Below are positions 830 to 6,232 of a stretch of 32,383 nucleotides of DNA, piece by piece. The notes under the pieces are model-generated. The model was not told the DNA's origin and searched no databases. It saw nothing but the letters and a program-made list of their open reading frames with translations. Origin of the DNA: an archaeon (lineage in GTDB: Archaea > Nanobdellota > Nanobdellia > SCGC-AAA011-G17 > GW2011-AR17). The position numbers and the translations under genes are program-made. The DNA lies in NCBI GenBank assembly GCA_018656555.1, contig JABHZQ010000018.1:1-32383 (forward strand). Direction: 5' to 3'. Position 1 is the stretch's first letter; each line of letters opens with the position of its first letter.

Positions 830-1032
830 AAATAACAAAAGATATGACTATTGGGGAAGTTATAAAGACTTATCCTCAAACAATGCCAGTATTTATGAAA
901 TTCCAAATGATGTGTTTTGGTTGTGGAATGGCTCAAATGGAAACATTAGAGCAAGGTTGTACTGCACATGGAATTGATGTAGATAAATTTCTAGAAGCAT
1001 TAAATAAAGCAGCTGAAGAAGAATCAGAGTAA
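826..1032 (+). CDS. DUF1858 (redox-disulfide) domain protein, 68 aa
   Basis: A stand-alone DUF1858 domain: an N-terminal MTIGEVIKTYP segment, then MPVFMKFQMMCFGCGM with the CxxC pair C30/C33, then a helical C-terminus (VDKFLEALNKA). The family is related to the N-terminal domain of ScdA/RIC-type iron-cluster repair proteins and is found fused to or beside hybrid-cluster proteins; the cysteines are thought to be redox active or to bind metal. Its start overlaps the ferredoxin stop by four bases, so ferredoxin and DUF1858 are probably made together. A redox partnership between the two is inferred from this coupling only. Its 3' end overlaps the convergent membrane-protein gene by nine bases. 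Confidence 0.85.
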   Translation: MKITKDMTIGEVIKTYPQTMPVFMKFQMMCFGCGMAQMETLEQGCTAHGIDVDKFLEALNKAAEEESE

Positions 1033-1212
1033 TCTTTCTAAACCATCTTTAGCAGTTAATATTATTCCAGTAATAGATAGACCTAAACCTGCAACTTCAA
1101 TTGGTAAAGTAAATGCAGCTGCAAGATTAGCAGGAGTATATCTAATAGTTTGTGCAAAGCCATAAGCTGTTGCCATATATACTGGAAGTAAATAGTAATC
1201 AGTTAGTTCCAT
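1024..1212 (-). CDS. Small membrane protein, last gene of the FHA locus
   Basis: 62 residues with two likely membrane-spanning segments (about 8-23 and 31-54, the latter ending in GLGLSITGIILTA) joined by a short loop containing Arg, and a charged C-terminus (KDGLERLL). No domain is recognised. Its ATG shares one base with the stop of the upstream gene, so it is translationally coupled to it and belongs to the minus-strand operon that starts at 3981. It could anchor the FHA or unknown proteins of this operon at the membrane, but that is only suggested by position. Confidence 0.6.
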   Translation of the reverse strand: MELTDYYLLPVYMATAYGFAQTIRYTPANLAAAFTLPIEVAGLGLSITGIILTAKDGLERLL

Positions 1213-1679
1213 TATAATCTCTCAAAAGGATGTAATTTGTAACCTCTAGATACCATCTTATCTGCCATTCTTGTTAATTTTTCTTCAAGTTGAGCAGGAT
1301 TTGTTCCTCTGTATACAACTTGGGGAGTACTAATCGCAATATTAGATTCTATAACTATTGGCACAGTATCTACAACCCTCTCTTCAATAACAGTATTAAT
1401 TTCATTTTCAGTTGTTCTTCTCCAAGACTCAATTGCACCAATTAAATAATCAAGAATCCCCCCTTCCCAATCCATGGGTCGAAGTAAAGAAAAACCCATT
1501 TCAACTTGAGCTTCTCCATTTTCCGGATCTCTAACAGTTGCATCAAATTGAACAGAGTATCCTCTTACTTCAACTAGCTTTTTAAATTTATCATGATCTT
1601 CAGCACAGACAGAGTAAGTATAACCCTTGGTCAAAAGATCACTGGAAAGATCTCTAACATTATCATCTCTCCATCTCAT
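1212..1679 (-). CDS. Unknown protein in the FHA locus (155 aa)
   Basis: No family is recognised. The protein is soluble, rich in charged residues, and has a C-terminal helical segment NPAQLEEKLTRMADKMVSRG followed by YKL. The same layout (segment with Trp-Arg, a long charged helix, an NP-start helix ending in SRGYKL or SKGYLI) occurs in the next upstream gene, so the two look like distant paralogues. Start and stop codons of the three genes 1024-2248 touch or overlap, which points to coordinated synthesis. Arginine is unusually frequent relative to lysine compared with the flanking metabolic genes. Confidence 0.7.
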   Translation of the reverse strand: MRWRDDNVRDLSSDLLTKGYTYSVCAEDHDKFKKLVEVRGYSVQFDATVRDPENGEAQVEMGFSLLRPMDWEGGILDYLIGAIESWRRTTENEINTVIEERVVDTVPIVIESNIAISTPQVVYRGTNPAQLEEKLTRMADKMVSRGYKLHPFERL

Positions 1680-2218
1680 TATGCTGTACTCCTAAATCCT
1701 TCTAATAACTCTAAAATTCCTTGTTTGGTTCCACCTTCTTGAATCAAATATCCCTTACTAATCAAAGCACCAACTCCTTCTCTTGCTCTTCTCATATTCT
1801 CATAAGGGTTGTCTCCTCCAAAGTGCAAAGTTCGACCTTCAACATTTAAGTCATAAGATAAACCAAGATCAACTTCCATATCAATATCTGCACCTAATCT
1901 ATCACTCAACTCCTGTTCTTTTCTCACTTGCCAAGCATTAAGTTTCTCTCTTATCAAATCAAGTTCTGGATCTTCAACCTCCAAATCTTCAGTCATACTT
2001 ACTGAAATATCAGAGTACGGACATTGTTGTGCAACCTCTGGTTTATCAATGAGAACATACATATCAACTTGTTGACCATCAATTTCCATTTCACCAGACA
2101 TTTCAAGTCTATCTTTTCCTACAAATTCTGTTTCAAAACCAAGAGAGCCATAAGCAGCAATTGCTCTGCTTACAGCACCATCAGTTATCCAAGGTTTTGA
2201 ATATTCTTGTGTTACCAT
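1679..2218 (-). CDS. Unknown protein in the FHA locus (179-189 aa)
   Basis: No family is recognised. It is acidic, with alternating strand-like segments in the first half and a helical C-terminus (NPYENMRRAREGVGALISKG). It resembles the downstream 155-residue protein in its C-terminal half. Two starts are possible: ATG at 2218, one base after the stop of the preceding FHA gene, or ATG at 2248, which would overlap that gene by 29 bases. I chose 2218 because most junctions in this operon are tight rather than long overlaps; neither start has a convincing Shine-Dalgarno sequence. Its position directly after three FHA genes suggests a role in the same process, but its activity is unknown. Confidence 0.7.
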   Translation of the reverse strand: MVTQEYSKPWITDGAVSRAIAAYGSLGFETEFVGKDRLEMSGEMEIDGQQVDMYVLIDKPEVAQQCPYSDISVSMTEDLEVEDPELDLIREKLNAWQVRKEQELSDRLGADIDMEVDLGLSYDLNVEGRTLHFGGDNPYENMRRAREGVGALISKGYLIQEGGTKQGILELLEGFRSTA

Positions 2219-2219
2219 T

Positions 2220-2708
2220 TTATCTCTGAGGTCCAAGGACACTGACATATCCTCTTCCCATTTTTATTTTTGATCCAAAGTCAACAGTTCTTTCACCATG
2301 GTATACTCTTCCTCTGTCAACCATTGTCCCATTACTACTTCCTAAATCTCTTACAACAAGTCTATCCATAGATTTATCATAAGATAGTCTTGCATGTAAC
2401 TTAGACATTTGGGAATCACCTATTTGGATGTCAGCACCTGCATTTCCTCTACCAAATACAATACCTTCTTGATCTATTGGTAAATACAAACCACCTTCTT
2501 GTAGTTGATACATTCCATCTTCAGAAGGAACCATAACTTTTGTTCCTAAGGGATATACAAATTCTAAATTTGCGCCTTTTGCATCTGGTCTACCTCTAAC
2601 TGGTTGCCCAATAATAAGGATTTCCAGCTCAGGCCGATCACCTAACCTCTCAACATCAAAAGCCCTTGCAATTAATTCTTCATCTCCTAAAATAAATCTT
2701 CTTCTCAT
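2220..2708 (-). CDS. FHA-domain protein (third of three)
   Basis: 162 residues with an FHA domain at about 80-160. Key residues are present: the GR of the first loop (IVFGRGNAGADIQI), S-K-x-H in the second (QMSKLHAR) and the SSNGT loop (DLGSSNGTMVD). These residues contact phosphothreonine in known FHA domains, so phosphopeptide binding is likely. The first 75 residues contain no recognised domain and repeat the style of the neighbouring FHA proteins. It differs from its siblings in having Lys instead of Arg in the S-R-x-H motif. An AGGAGG Shine-Dalgarno sequence precedes the ATG. It belongs to the minus-strand operon starting at 3981. Confidence 0.9.
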   Translation of the reverse strand: MRRRFILGDEELIARAFDVERLGDRPELEILIIGQPVRGRPDAKGANLEFVYPLGTKVMVPSEDGMYQLQEGGLYLPIDQEGIVFGRGNAGADIQIGDSQMSKLHARLSYDKSMDRLVVRDLGSSNGTMVDRGRVYHGERTVDFGSKIKMGRGYVSVLGPQR

Positions 2709-2717
2709 TTTTTCCTC

Positions 2718-3239
2718 CTAATAAGATAACCTCAAAGTACTAGCTCCACCAGTTCCAATTTCCAATCTTGAGTGAGTACCTACTAAAGTTGGTCTTCCTC
2801 GAACCTCTCTACCATTTAGATAGGTTCCATTTGTACTTGCCAAATCTTCAACTCTCAAAATTCCATTGTTATAAGTTAACTTTGCATGAAGTCTAGAAAC
2901 CAATGCATCTCCAGGTATCTGTATATCTGCATCTGAACCTCTACCAATAGTTACTCCTCTTCTATCAATTGGAATTGTAACTTCATCAGCAGCAATAACA
3001 ACAGCACCTAAATCTCCAATAACAACTGGGTAAGTGTGTCTTATCTTAAGATCTAAAACTCTCTGTCTTATTGGGCCAATATTTGCACATCTTCCTGGAG
3101 CTTTTCTTCTATATCTTCCTATTGGATCTGCAACAGTTGCATGTTCGGCTCTATCATATGGAACTAAAGCCCTATCATCTAATACTGTTTGATGTTCGTC
3201 TTGTCCACCACCTCTCATTCTTCTAAACCATTCTACCAT
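2718..3239 (-). CDS. FHA-domain protein (second of three)
   Basis: 173 residues. A basic, Arg-rich N-terminal half (about 1-90, including RYRRKAPGR) precedes a C-terminal FHA domain (about 95-170) with all signature loops: TIGRGSDADIQI, LVSRLHAKL and DLASTNGTYLNG. Arg, Ser, and Asn residues that bind phosphothreonine are intact. Such single-FHA adaptors bind phosphorylated partners; none of the three in this operon carries a fused enzyme domain. The gene ends in TAT-TAG where the TAG is part of the Shine-Dalgarno sequence of the next gene, so termination and re-initiation are closely linked. The natural ligand is unknown. Confidence 0.92.
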   Translation of the reverse strand: MVEWFRRMRGGGQDEHQTVLDDRALVPYDRAEHATVADPIGRYRRKAPGRCANIGPIRQRVLDLKIRHTYPVVIGDLGAVVIAADEVTIPIDRRGVTIGRGSDADIQIPGDALVSRLHAKLTYNNGILRVEDLASTNGTYLNGREVRGRPTLVGTHSRLEIGTGGASTLRLSY

Positions 3240-3252
3240 TTTATTTTGCCTC

Positions 3253-3693
3253 CTAATATCTTACCTCAAATATTGTGTCTCCGATTTGAATTCGATCATG
3301 ATCATATAATGGAGAAGGAACCTGTCCTATGTTTTCACCATTAACATATGTCCCATTAGAACTATTCAAATCCGTAATTGAAATCCCCTCACTATTAGAT
3401 TCAAACCTAGCATGAACTCTAGATACTTTATCATCTGAAGAGTATATGTGTGTATGGAGAGATCTACCAATAGTTGCAGTAGGAAACCTATCAAAACCTA
3501 AAACTTCTTCAAAAGGTCCAACCATTTCACTTATAGTAAGACTTCTTCTAAGCCTCCCACCAAAATCTCTCTGTCCATGTATCTTAGGTCTCACTTCTCC
3601 CCTTCTAATTCCTTCATAAGGTACTACATCAATATCTCCCCCAACAGTATCTTGTTTTCCTTTTCTCCAGGCTCTGTATAATTTTATTACCAT
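3253..3693 (-). CDS. FHA-domain protein (first of three)
   Basis: 146 residues with a C-terminal FHA domain at about 65-146: ATIGRSLHTHIYS, KVSRVHARF and DLNSSNGTYVNG carry the canonical Gly-Arg, Ser-Arg-x-His and Ser-Ser-Asn-Gly motifs. This is the closest of the three to a textbook FHA. The N-terminal 60 residues are basic and have no recognised fold. It ends in RY followed by TAG within TAGGAGG, the same junction as its neighbours. Upstream is a 92-residue protein whose stop uses the same TATTAGGAG sequence. Gene duplication within the locus is the simplest explanation for three adjacent FHA genes of similar size. Confidence 0.92.
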   Translation of the reverse strand: MVIKLYRAWRKGKQDTVGGDIDVVPYEGIRRGEVRPKIHGQRDFGGRLRRSLTISEMVGPFEEVLGFDRFPTATIGRSLHTHIYSSDDKVSRVHARFESNSEGISITDLNSSNGTYVNGENIGQVPSPLYDHDRIQIGDTIFEVRY

Positions 3694-3702
3694 TTTTTTC
3701 TC

Positions 3703-3981
3703 CTAATATTCTGTAGGTACTCTCACATAGGAAAGACTATTTCCTGATCTCAAAGCATCATAGATATCTCTAGCACTTTCATAACCAGTAACTGCCTTAA
3801 GCCAAGGAACAACTGTTCTTCTAGCATGTGTAGAACGATCTATTGGGCAACATCTTGGATGCCCTTCCATTAATGCTATGATATTCTTATTAGTTCCAGA
3901 TCTAATTGAAACTCCTGGAATACTCTCTAGTGTCCTAACGACTTGTGAAAGTCTTAACCCATCTCTTGTTTTACCTACCAT
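3703..3981 (-). CDS. Small Arg-rich protein, possibly HicA-like fold, first gene of the FHA operon
   Basis: 92 residues. The core (about 12-68) runs helix, strand, strand, then STHARRTVVPWLKAVTGY, which resembles in layout the HicA/dsRBD-like fold (strand with GTNKNII, a Pro-rich strand, helix). There is no clear HicA catalytic histidine context, so this similarity is weak and the function is not known. Two adjacent cysteines (RCCPID) could bind metal. A TATA element at 4003-4012 lies about 27 bases upstream of the ATG, so this is the first, leaderless gene of the seven-gene minus-strand operon. No HicB-like antitoxin gene is adjacent. Confidence 0.6.
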   Translation of the reverse strand: MVGKTRDGLRLSQVVRTLESIPGVSIRSGTNKNIIALMEGHPRCCPIDRSTHARRTVVPWLKAVTGYESARDIYDALRSGNSLSYVRVPTEY

Positions 3982-4002
3982 ACTACCTATAAACAGGAAG
4001 TT

Positions 4003-4037
4003 TTAAATAAGAAGTTTGTATATACATATATATGGAG
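4003..4037. promoter_or_regulatory. Divergent promoter between the FHA operon and the PhoU-like gene
   Basis: TTTTAAATAA at 4003-4012 fits a TATA box for the minus-strand gene starting at 3981 (about 27 bases away). On the plus strand the same AT-rich element or the tata repeats at 4018-4032 could drive the PhoU-like gene. GGAG at 4034-4037 is a Shine-Dalgarno sequence eight bases before the ATG at 4046. The two transcripts therefore share one small control region. Confidence 0.5.
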
Positions 4038-4045
4038 ATATATAC

Positions 4046-4978
4046 ATGAAAAGAAAGCTAGTAAAACAAGGTCCACAAACCTTGGTAGTAAGTATGCCCT
4101 CTCAGTGGATAAAAAAGAACAAACTAGAGAAGGGAAATGAGGTAGAAATAGCAGAAATCTCCAATAATTTAGTTATTTCAGGTAAGGAAATAGTAGAACC
4201 AAAAACAAAAGAACCCTTTGTTCTAAACATTGATGATAAAGAAGATTACCTAACAAAGAGATACCTAACAATGTTATACAGGTTAGGCTATGAAGAGATA
4301 ATTCTAACTTTCAACAAATCAAAAATAAAGAAATTAAAAACACGAGAATCAGTCCCCTTAGAAAAGTACATATCAAATCTAACTAACAGATTCATAGGCA
4401 TGGAGATCATAAGCTCAGAAAAAAACAAAATAATCTTAAAATGCTTTACAACTATAAGTCCAGAAGAATTAAAATCCCTACAAAGAAGAATTTTTTTATT
4501 AATGCTTGAGTTTATGAACAATCTCCTAAACAAGAACTACAACAGCAATAGGGCCCATGATAGCATTGCAAAATTCATCAACTACTTCTTCAGAATACTC
4601 AACGCCTCACCTGAAGCCTCCCTGGAAGATAAAGAATTCTTTTATGGATTCTTTTCTGTCCAGGATAAACTAGCAGATTTCTTGAGACATATACATTTTG
4701 AAATAAAAAGAGCAAAGAGATTATCCAAATCAACACAAACTCTACTAAAAGAAATATTCTCACTTTATGATGATCTCTACCATCTCTATTACAAATTCAA
4801 AGATGAAAAGAGCAAAGAAATAGTTCTAAAAAGATATGAACTTGTAAGAAAAGTACACAAAGCAAGGTTTACAGTACCAGAAGCAAAAATAATCTATGAT
4901 GCTGATTTTATTCTATTAATGATAAATGATTTTTATGAATGTTTAATCGGAAGAAGTCTATCTATAAACTCCAACTAA
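4046..4978 (+). CDS. AbrB-PhoU type regulator
   Basis: 310 residues. Residues 1-45 form a SpoVT/AbrB-type swapped-hairpin DNA-binding domain (KLVKQGPQTLVVSMPSQWIK then LEKGNEVEI), and about 80-305 are all-helical with the acidic-helix pattern of PhoU domains. This two-domain form is the archaeal phosphate uptake regulator family, which binds DNA or metal and controls phosphate transport genes, though no phosphate transporter is in this window. An upstream in-frame ATG at 4016 is rejected because GGAG at 4034-4037 is correctly spaced for the ATG at 4046. It sits between the FHA operon and the kinase-like gene and ends with a 21-base convergent overlap with the latter. Confidence 0.8.
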   Translation: MKRKLVKQGPQTLVVSMPSQWIKKNKLEKGNEVEIAEISNNLVISGKEIVEPKTKEPFVLNIDDKEDYLTKRYLTMLYRLGYEEIILTFNKSKIKKLKTRESVPLEKYISNLTNRFIGMEIISSEKNKIILKCFTTISPEELKSLQRRIFLLMLEFMNNLLNKNYNSNRAHDSIAKFINYFFRILNASPEASLEDKEFFYGFFSVQDKLADFLRHIHFEIKRAKRLSKSTQTLLKEIFSLYDDLYHLYYKFKDEKSKEIVLKRYELVRKVHKARFTVPEAKIIYDADFILLMINDFYECLIGRSLSINSN

Positions 4979-6232
4979 CCATTCTAACTTTTCAATATAA
5001 TTACGATTAGCTTCTAGTTCATTAGGTCCAATTTTACCACTCAATACATTATGAGATAATAACCTTGTACAATCAACAACCCCAGCAAGTAAGCCCCTAT
5101 TTGTTTCTTCTTTGACTTTGGTACTATCAATTCTATACTTCAATTCAGATGGTAATATTCCTACTTCCTCTTCCAAAGCACCACCAACCCAATCAGGAAT
5201 ATCTTCTTCTCTACCCTTTGCTTGTAAATCCAGCATTGATCTAGCATAATCATGATATTTTAAATCAACTTTTGCTCTTTCCCAATCAAGTAAATTCAAT
5301 ACAATCCAATTCTCATCTTTTGGATCCATATGTGCAAAATACATATTTCTTGGATCTTTTCTTAGACCTTCAAATATTCCAACAACCTGAGGATATAATT
5401 TTCTTAGATAGTGACTAGTAATTGTACTAAATGGATTACGTTCACCTGCTCTCAAAGCAGCAACCTGTGTTGCCATTAAAATTTCATCAATATTACCATA
5501 ATCTTTCCTACCCAAATCAATTCCATGTTCACTTAACAATTCTTTAATTTGTGGTGAGTGCCCATGCAATCTTCCTAAGAACTTCATCCTCTCTTCAATA
5601 AGTAAACTAGGATCAAGAACAGTAGGCTTAGAAACTCTTGTAACTAAAAAAGAATACTCTCCTAAATTAATTGGATCTTCATGAACTAAAGGAGTATGTC
5701 TTCCAATTTCTGATAAACATTCCTCTTGATGAAACATATCTAAAATTCCAGCCTCTCTTTGAACATCCCCATTCTTTGCATATTTAATACAAATCAAATA
5801 ACCATCTGAATCTTCAGCTAAAAAAACATCATTGCTAGAAATTCTTGCCATTGGTCTTATGTTTTTTAAATCTGGAAAATGTGATTCTAATTTCATAGCA
5901 ATAAAAGGATCAACACCTCTTTGAACCAAACCTTGAACTCTTCTATTCCCAACAACTCCTGCGCCTGAAGAAGAAACTCTTGGTCCAGGTAAAGGATCAC
6001 TCCAATCAGTAGGTGTACCCATTTCTCTAAGAGTTTCATCCATGGCCGAATTAGCACCCGGTCTAGCCAAATACCTACCTGCTACCTGTCTGGCTCTCCT
6101 ACCTAATCTACCCAAACCGCTTCCACCCGTAGGAGTATCTGGAGCTCCACCTATAACCGTTCTATTTCTATCTTCACCACCACTAGTGGTAGTATGCTCG
6201 TCAGGATATTTCCTTCTACGCCTTTTTGCCAT
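4958..6232 (-). CDS. APH-fold kinase-like protein with Thr/Arg-rich N-terminal tail
   Basis: 424 residues. The first 80 or so are low-complexity (RRRR near the start, then Thr, Ser, Gly and Arg with TTTSGG and DTPTGG). Residues about 115-380 look like an aminoglycoside-phosphotransferase-type kinase fold: an N-lobe strand with ICIKYA (ATP-binding Lys) and QREAGIL (helix-C Glu), the Brenner motif HMDPKDEN (catalytic Asp and Asn) and LLDWERA in place of DFG (metal Asp). APH-type enzymes phosphorylate small molecules or proteins; the substrate here is not known. A TATA box at 6255-6263 indicates a leaderless transcript. The nearby FHA genes suggest it may phosphorylate threonines read by them. 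Confidence 0.75.
   Translation of the reverse strand: MAKRRRRKYPDEHTTTSGGEDRNRTVIGGAPDTPTGGSGLGRLGRRARQVAGRYLARPGANSAMDETLREMGTPTDWSDPLPGPRVSSSGAGVVGNRRVQGLVQRGVDPFIAMKLESHFPDLKNIRPMARISSNDVFLAEDSDGYLICIKYAKNGDVQREAGILDMFHQEECLSEIGRHTPLVHEDPINLGEYSFLVTRVSKPTVLDPSLLIEERMKFLGRLHGHSPQIKELLSEHGIDLGRKDYGNIDEILMATQVAALRAGERNPFSTITSHYLRKLYPQVVGIFEGLRKDPRNMYFAHMDPKDENWIVLNLLDWERAKVDLKYHDYARSMLDLQAKGREEDIPDWVGGALEEEVGILPSELKYRIDSTKVKEETNRGLLAGVVDCTRLLSHNVLSGKIGPNELEANRNYIEKLEWLVGVYR

Follow-up and report, generated by a model that had tools for sequence, protein, structure and literature searches.

The locus considered here raises the question of whether several FHA genes packed beside a kinase-like gene in a very small archaeal genome make up a dedicated phosphorylation-dependent system. 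How small DPANN-type archaea transmit signals has received little study, and our literature search on FHA systems in these organisms returned nothing relevant. The window, i.e. the whole stretch of 32,383 nucleotides that was analysed, is contig C23 of a genome of 1.08 Mb in 26 contigs (hereafter G000). The original prediction, made from the letters alone, described a phospho-signalling locus with three FHA genes and an adjacent kinase-like gene, the link between them being drawn from proximity and from a Thr-rich kinase tail.

All seven packed minus-strand genes of that prediction (1024–3981) were recovered as ORFs, with intergenic gaps of 9–13 bp or with overlaps, and GGAG-type ribosome sites precede the FHA genes. 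From the upstream end, the run encodes a small Arg-rich protein with a HicA-like domain (3703..3981), FHA protein 1 of 146 aa (3253..3693), FHA protein 2 of 173 aa (2718..3239), FHA protein 3 of 162 aa (2220..2708), the proteins U189 (1679..2248) and U155 (1212..1679), and a protein of 62 aa (1024..1212). The start of U189 may lie at 2218 instead of 2248, directly behind the FHA protein 3 stop. The 424-aa ORF of the APH-like kinase was likewise present where it had been placed (4958..6232, minus strand). The kinase gene cannot share one operon with this run: a plus-strand gene of an AbrB–PhoU family regulator (4046..4978), which the original prediction passed over, is situated between the run and the kinase, and the kinase and FHA genes are therefore separate transcription units. 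The regulator gene is divergent from the FHA operon and convergent with the kinase gene, which it overlaps by 21 bp at the 3' end. Most of the block has a G+C content of 33–41%, somewhat above the 28–33% found past the kinase-side flank; the AbrB–PhoU gene has 29–31%.

A second genus of the same family, represented by the MAG SI047_bin70 (JABHYY010000005.1, contig C14; hereafter G004), carries the cassette in the order M29-like peptidase, kinase, AbrB–PhoU, HicA-like protein, two FHA proteins and ferredoxins, with the same neighbours as in the window; U189, U155 and the 62-aa protein have no counterpart in the G004 cassette. Identities between the two copies amount to 28% for the kinase (312 aligned residues), 39–45% for the FHA proteins, 43% for the HicA-like protein and 61% for AbrB–PhoU, and to 53–82% for the flanking genes. 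In a third genus (g6) the site is empty, with the M29-like peptidase and ferredoxin genes abutting at a 4 bp overlap (L106, L108); in L107, also of g6, the automatic ORF call gives only an antisense frame of ferredoxin. Since the flanking genes abut in g6, gain or loss affected the kinase, regulator, HicA-like and FHA genes jointly. Two genera thus keep FHA readers, an APH-like kinase core and AbrB–PhoU side by side, and the third lacks the whole set at this site. The original prediction was open to refutation by genes that are not neighbours in related genomes; the order is kept in G004, the only related genome with the block. That this block, gained or lost as one cassette, serves phospho-signalling has in our estimate about even chances. 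FHA genes of three further genomes (G006, G015 and G017) lie in other contexts, unrelated to the cassette, and were set aside as not belonging to the same system.

The three FHA proteins of the window matched PF00498 above its curated cut-off (E 6.9e-18, 9.6e-17 and 1.3e-12 for FHA proteins 1, 2 and 3, respectively), and the positions of phosphothreonine contact (GR, S, H and N-G-T), which had been described as intact, are invariant in all five cassette FHA proteins of the window and G004. These domains are accordingly predicted, from sequence, to bind phosphopeptides. Three of the five proteins have TVxD motifs in their N-terminal tails, five copies in all; in FHA protein 2 the motif reads TVLDD at residue 18 and TVADP at residue 35, the tail of FHA protein 1 contains DTVGGD, which is not TVxD, and FHA protein 3 is devoid of it. 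When the tails were shuffled, about 1 trial in 10,000 gave three proteins with TVxD (P 1e-4), a value to be read with the shared descent of the tails, which are not independent. FHA domains are known to contact an Asp at pT+3 (PMC5041073). The expectation that the FHA ligand resides mainly in the kinase tail has to be modified, as it is the N-terminal tails of the FHA proteins that hold the clearest FHA-type motifs.

The kinase matched PF01636 (APH) over most of the profile, with E 0.16 and 12.1 bits, i.e. below the curated cut-off of 23.2, and had no match to PF00069 (Hanks-type Ser/Thr kinase). Its core motifs follow in the order SxN-VF, K150, E160, LGRLHG, HMD303xxxxN308 and D316-W-E, and so agree with the APH catalytic order K/E/HxDxxxxN/D. 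In the G004 ortholog (L016:546-1805), the only relative of this kinase in the genomes searched, the residues K, E, D, N and D are kept, the histidine of HxD is replaced by serine and DWE reads DLE. The protein therefore resembles APH/choline-kinase-like enzymes (PF01636) in its succession of SxN, K, E, RLH, HxDxxxxN and DWE, and differs from them in its sub-threshold score, its long N-terminal extension and its occurrence in two genomes only. The extension comprises about 107 residues before the kinase core, has a basic start, contains T25-V-I-G-G and was predicted with low structural confidence. Motifs of the T-x-IGG type are present in the extensions of both kinases, as RTVIGG in the window and CTEIGG in G004. 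The Thr-rich tail of the original prediction is hence found to bear Thr, although it is N-terminal and only mildly Thr-rich (9 T per 110 residues). The AlphaFold2 model, based on two sequences, was poor (pLDDT 42). A profile of the kinase had no match among PDB sequences, it aligned in register, without significance, with the other AbrB–PhoU-linked APH kinases, and no relatives were found in plasmids or viral contigs. From its motifs and its setting we infer that the cassette kinase may act as a protein Thr kinase.

The small Arg-rich protein, the presence of which was also confirmed, belongs to a family found in 11 of 371 genomes of the phylum, mostly as proteins of 80–100 aa. Its predicted structure (pLDDT 85) has an alpha-beta3-alpha2 arrangement, for which Foldseek against the PDB returned two HicA chains among the nine best hits, at non-significant E values of 1.9–2.6. 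The similarity to HicA is in the alpha-beta3-alpha topology; a histidine at or beside GxxH occurs in 10 of 12 aligned family members but in neither of the two cassette copies, no HicA Pfam match was obtained and no HicB partner was recognised. In another genome (G029), three tandem related genes directly follow a member of this family (L029:1034-2507). U155 and U189 are indeed related to each other, weakly (BLASTP E 6e-4 in a single comparison); neither has a family match or a relative in viral contigs, and profile searches against PDB sequences yielded chance matches only. The predicted small membrane protein corresponds to the 62-aa ORF, whose C-terminal half includes one clearly hydrophobic stretch, and a membrane role is retained for it as that of a candidate anchor.

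The AbrB–PhoU protein of the window scored 22.0 bits against the MazE/AbrB cut-off of 24.7, which is passed by the G004 ortholog (25.7) and by paralogs; the PhoU cut-off is passed by the paralog in L079 only. It appears to share an AbrB N-terminal domain and a PhoU-like C-terminal region with AbrB–PhoU regulators such as TK2245, which is chromosome-associated in Thermococcus (PMC7325993), and is distinguished here by the convergent kinase. We surveyed AbrB–PhoU genes in the family, obtaining 34 matches at E below 1e-10 from 14 of the 18 genomes, and read their neighbourhoods. In 15 of the 34 loci (e.g. L061, L062, L063, L068, L079 and L080) a kinase gene directly faces AbrB–PhoU, convergent with it and with a slight overlap: three are Hanks kinases, ten are APH-fold and two are the cassette kinases, with those of L068, L074 and L090 scoring just below the PF01636 cut-off and possessing the catalytic motif. 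Two further loci have Hanks-type neighbour fragments cut by contig ends. Among the other ORFs of the same loci, a count by motif and profile puts the share of kinases at about 1.7%. The loci are not independent, with partners that form about five or six groups; by a simple binomial estimate this number of groups still exceeds expectation (P ~2e-5 for 6 of 33). In the tree, the cassette AbrB–PhoU pair is sister to an AbrB–PhoU protein paired with a Hanks Ser/Thr kinase (support 100/99). The occupancy of this slot is consistent with a protein-directed cassette kinase, as guilt by association and not as proof. Together with the gene order in G004 and the empty site in g6, the recurrence of kinases beside AbrB–PhoU strengthens the proposed connection between kinase and FHA proteins, and the overall interpretation is in part supported. 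The AbrB–PhoU/kinase pairing, of which a search of an open paper library gave no report, is possibly a more general finding than the cassette itself.

Just before the AbrB–PhoU start lies a palindrome, TATATAT-4-ATATATA (4027..4044), in the upstream region common to this gene and the FHA operon, which makes it a candidate operator or promoter element. G004 has a palindrome at nearly the same position and with the same spacer, in which a T:A pair is changed to C:G. Upstream of the AbrB–PhoU genes, palindromes with arms of 7 were observed in 9 of 34 cases against 3.9 expected; they are not general among these loci, and the operator idea thus rests on the two cassettes. Such an AT-rich palindrome could partly be due to chance.

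The gene content of the genome bears on the need for a writer. G000 has seven FHA genes, and a search with the Pkinase model detected no Hanks kinase in it, the only matches being partial ones in frames of 203 and 288 aa, which we read, from size and position in the model, as Bud32- and Rio-type. For the window genome this makes the cassette kinase the obvious candidate for the writer, although a kinase of another family may also act there. G004 has ten Pkinase-model matches, several of which are clearly Hanks kinases, and another kinase could therefore be the writer there. No match to the PP2C_2 phosphatase was found in the 18 family genomes.

The closest known arrangement is PknG–OdhI/GarA, in which the autophosphorylated N-terminal extension of PknG recruits the FHA substrate, whose N-terminal Thr is then phosphorylated (PMC8546545). 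The likeness consists in a Thr-bearing kinase N-terminal extension and in small FHA proteins, with a Thr motif in the tail of the PknG substrates (PMC8546545) and candidate motifs of this kind in three of the five cassette FHA proteins. PknG is, however, a Hanks kinase with a TPR domain, no match to which was found in the window, and its substrates carry the motif ETTS, absent from the cassette FHA proteins; the cassette instead combines an AbrB–PhoU gene with an APH-like kinase and with two or three FHA proteins, and its motifs are of the TVxD type. Archaeal FHA signalling is also known from ArnA–ArnB with ArnC/ArnD of Sulfolobales, a system with an FHA protein, its phosphorylated partner and Ser/Thr kinases (PMC6509490). 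The gene set here is different, the block has no vWA partner beside the FHA genes and, as stated above, Hanks kinases were not detected in G000.

By analogy, we propose, with about equal confidence for and against, a writer–reader module similar to PknG–OdhI/GarA in which a divergent APH-fold kinase is the writer and AbrB–PhoU the transcriptional arm. The kinase would autophosphorylate its N-terminal extension, the phosphorylated extension would dock the FHA proteins, and the kinase would then phosphorylate the TVxD threonines of their N-terminal tails. FHA domains, acting in cis or in trans, could bind the resulting pThr-x-x-Asp tails and so produce a switch or an assembly as in PknG–OdhI/GarA. 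AbrB–PhoU, divergent from the FHA operon over the shared palindrome, would tune the operon and would probably be tied to the kinase output, while the 62-aa protein may keep part of the assembly at the membrane. Weighing against this reading are the sub-threshold APH score, the serine in the HxD motif of the ortholog, the non-significant profile comparison with the other AbrB–PhoU-linked APH kinases, the poor kinase model, the shared descent of the TVxD tails, the lack of TVxD in FHA proteins 1 and 3, and the occurrence of the cassette in two genomes only.

The main rival to this proposal is that the APH-like protein is a small-molecule kinase under AbrB–PhoU control and that the FHA operon, a signalling or scaffold set of its own, shares the cassette by coincidence and is served by another kinase. 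APH-fold enzymes usually phosphorylate small molecules, the majority of the AbrB–PhoU-linked kinases in our survey are APH-fold, and the kinase and FHA genes are not co-transcribed. We nonetheless consider this explanation rather unlikely, given that true Hanks kinases are among the AbrB–PhoU partners, that gain or loss took in the kinase and FHA genes as one block, that both kinases have Thr-bearing N-terminal extensions, and that G000 offers no detectable Hanks kinase to take the place of the writer.

It is improbable, in our estimate, that the FHA proteins assemble with U155/U189 and the membrane protein into a phosphorylation-independent structural complex, with the kinase-like protein as a pseudoenzyme. 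Phospho-independent FHA contacts are known from Rad53–Dbf4 (PMC5041073) and the HxD histidine is replaced in the ortholog; against this, the phosphothreonine-contact positions do not vary among the five FHA proteins, and the catalytic K, E, D, N and D persist at an overall identity of only 28%. Slightly less probable still is a defence or toxin–antitoxin type island, combining a HicA-like domain with FHA/kinase signalling at a fast-evolving gain/loss site between core genes. The presence/absence pattern of the cassette, its rapid divergence, the weakly HicA-like fold and FHA–caspase proteins elsewhere in the genome and family would fit such an island, but PADLOC gave one weak, chance-like match only, phage families gave nothing convincing, the kinase has no relatives in viral contigs or plasmids, and the HicA-like protein has neither the conserved His of its family nor a recognised HicB-like partner.

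Returning to the writer–reader proposal, the cassette looks like a home-made version of the bacterial kinase–FHA switch, and would represent a near-minimal writer–reader–regulator set, rebuildable in vitro, from a 1.08-Mb genome without a detectable Hanks kinase. Its wider form, namely a stand-alone Thr-phosphorylation system with an APH-fold writer, FHA substrates/readers and AbrB–PhoU output, and more generally a signalling pair, recurrent in archaea, of AbrB–PhoU and a convergent Hanks or APH-fold kinase, is put forward tentatively, at somewhat less than even chances. The recurrent pairing would point towards a function for a class of regulators in archaea and would raise the question of whether archaeal APH-fold enzymes phosphorylate proteins.

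Several other loci deserve mention. FHA–caspase (Peptidase_C14) fusions occur in two genera of the family, in the window genome (L018:9599-10651, contig C7) and in G006 (L022:5547-6740), the former close to a PALP enzyme, whose EF-hand match is below threshold, and to small proteins that look hydrophobic. In L020, a long run of masked bases (N) at about 11.1–18.4 kb was read as a spurious ORF of 2500 aa. Two genes (L064:7681-9453 and L065:2031-4070) join a lactate/malate-dehydrogenase-type NAD-binding N-terminus to a Hanks kinase C-terminus, with a TrmB-like gene (by eye) and AbrB–PhoU downstream. Furthermore, contig C7 of the window genome encodes a protein of 604 aa (L069:6512-8326) with an LRR-like region and a P-loop nucleotide-kinase-like C-terminus, the gene of which is convergent by 23 bp with another AbrB–PhoU gene.
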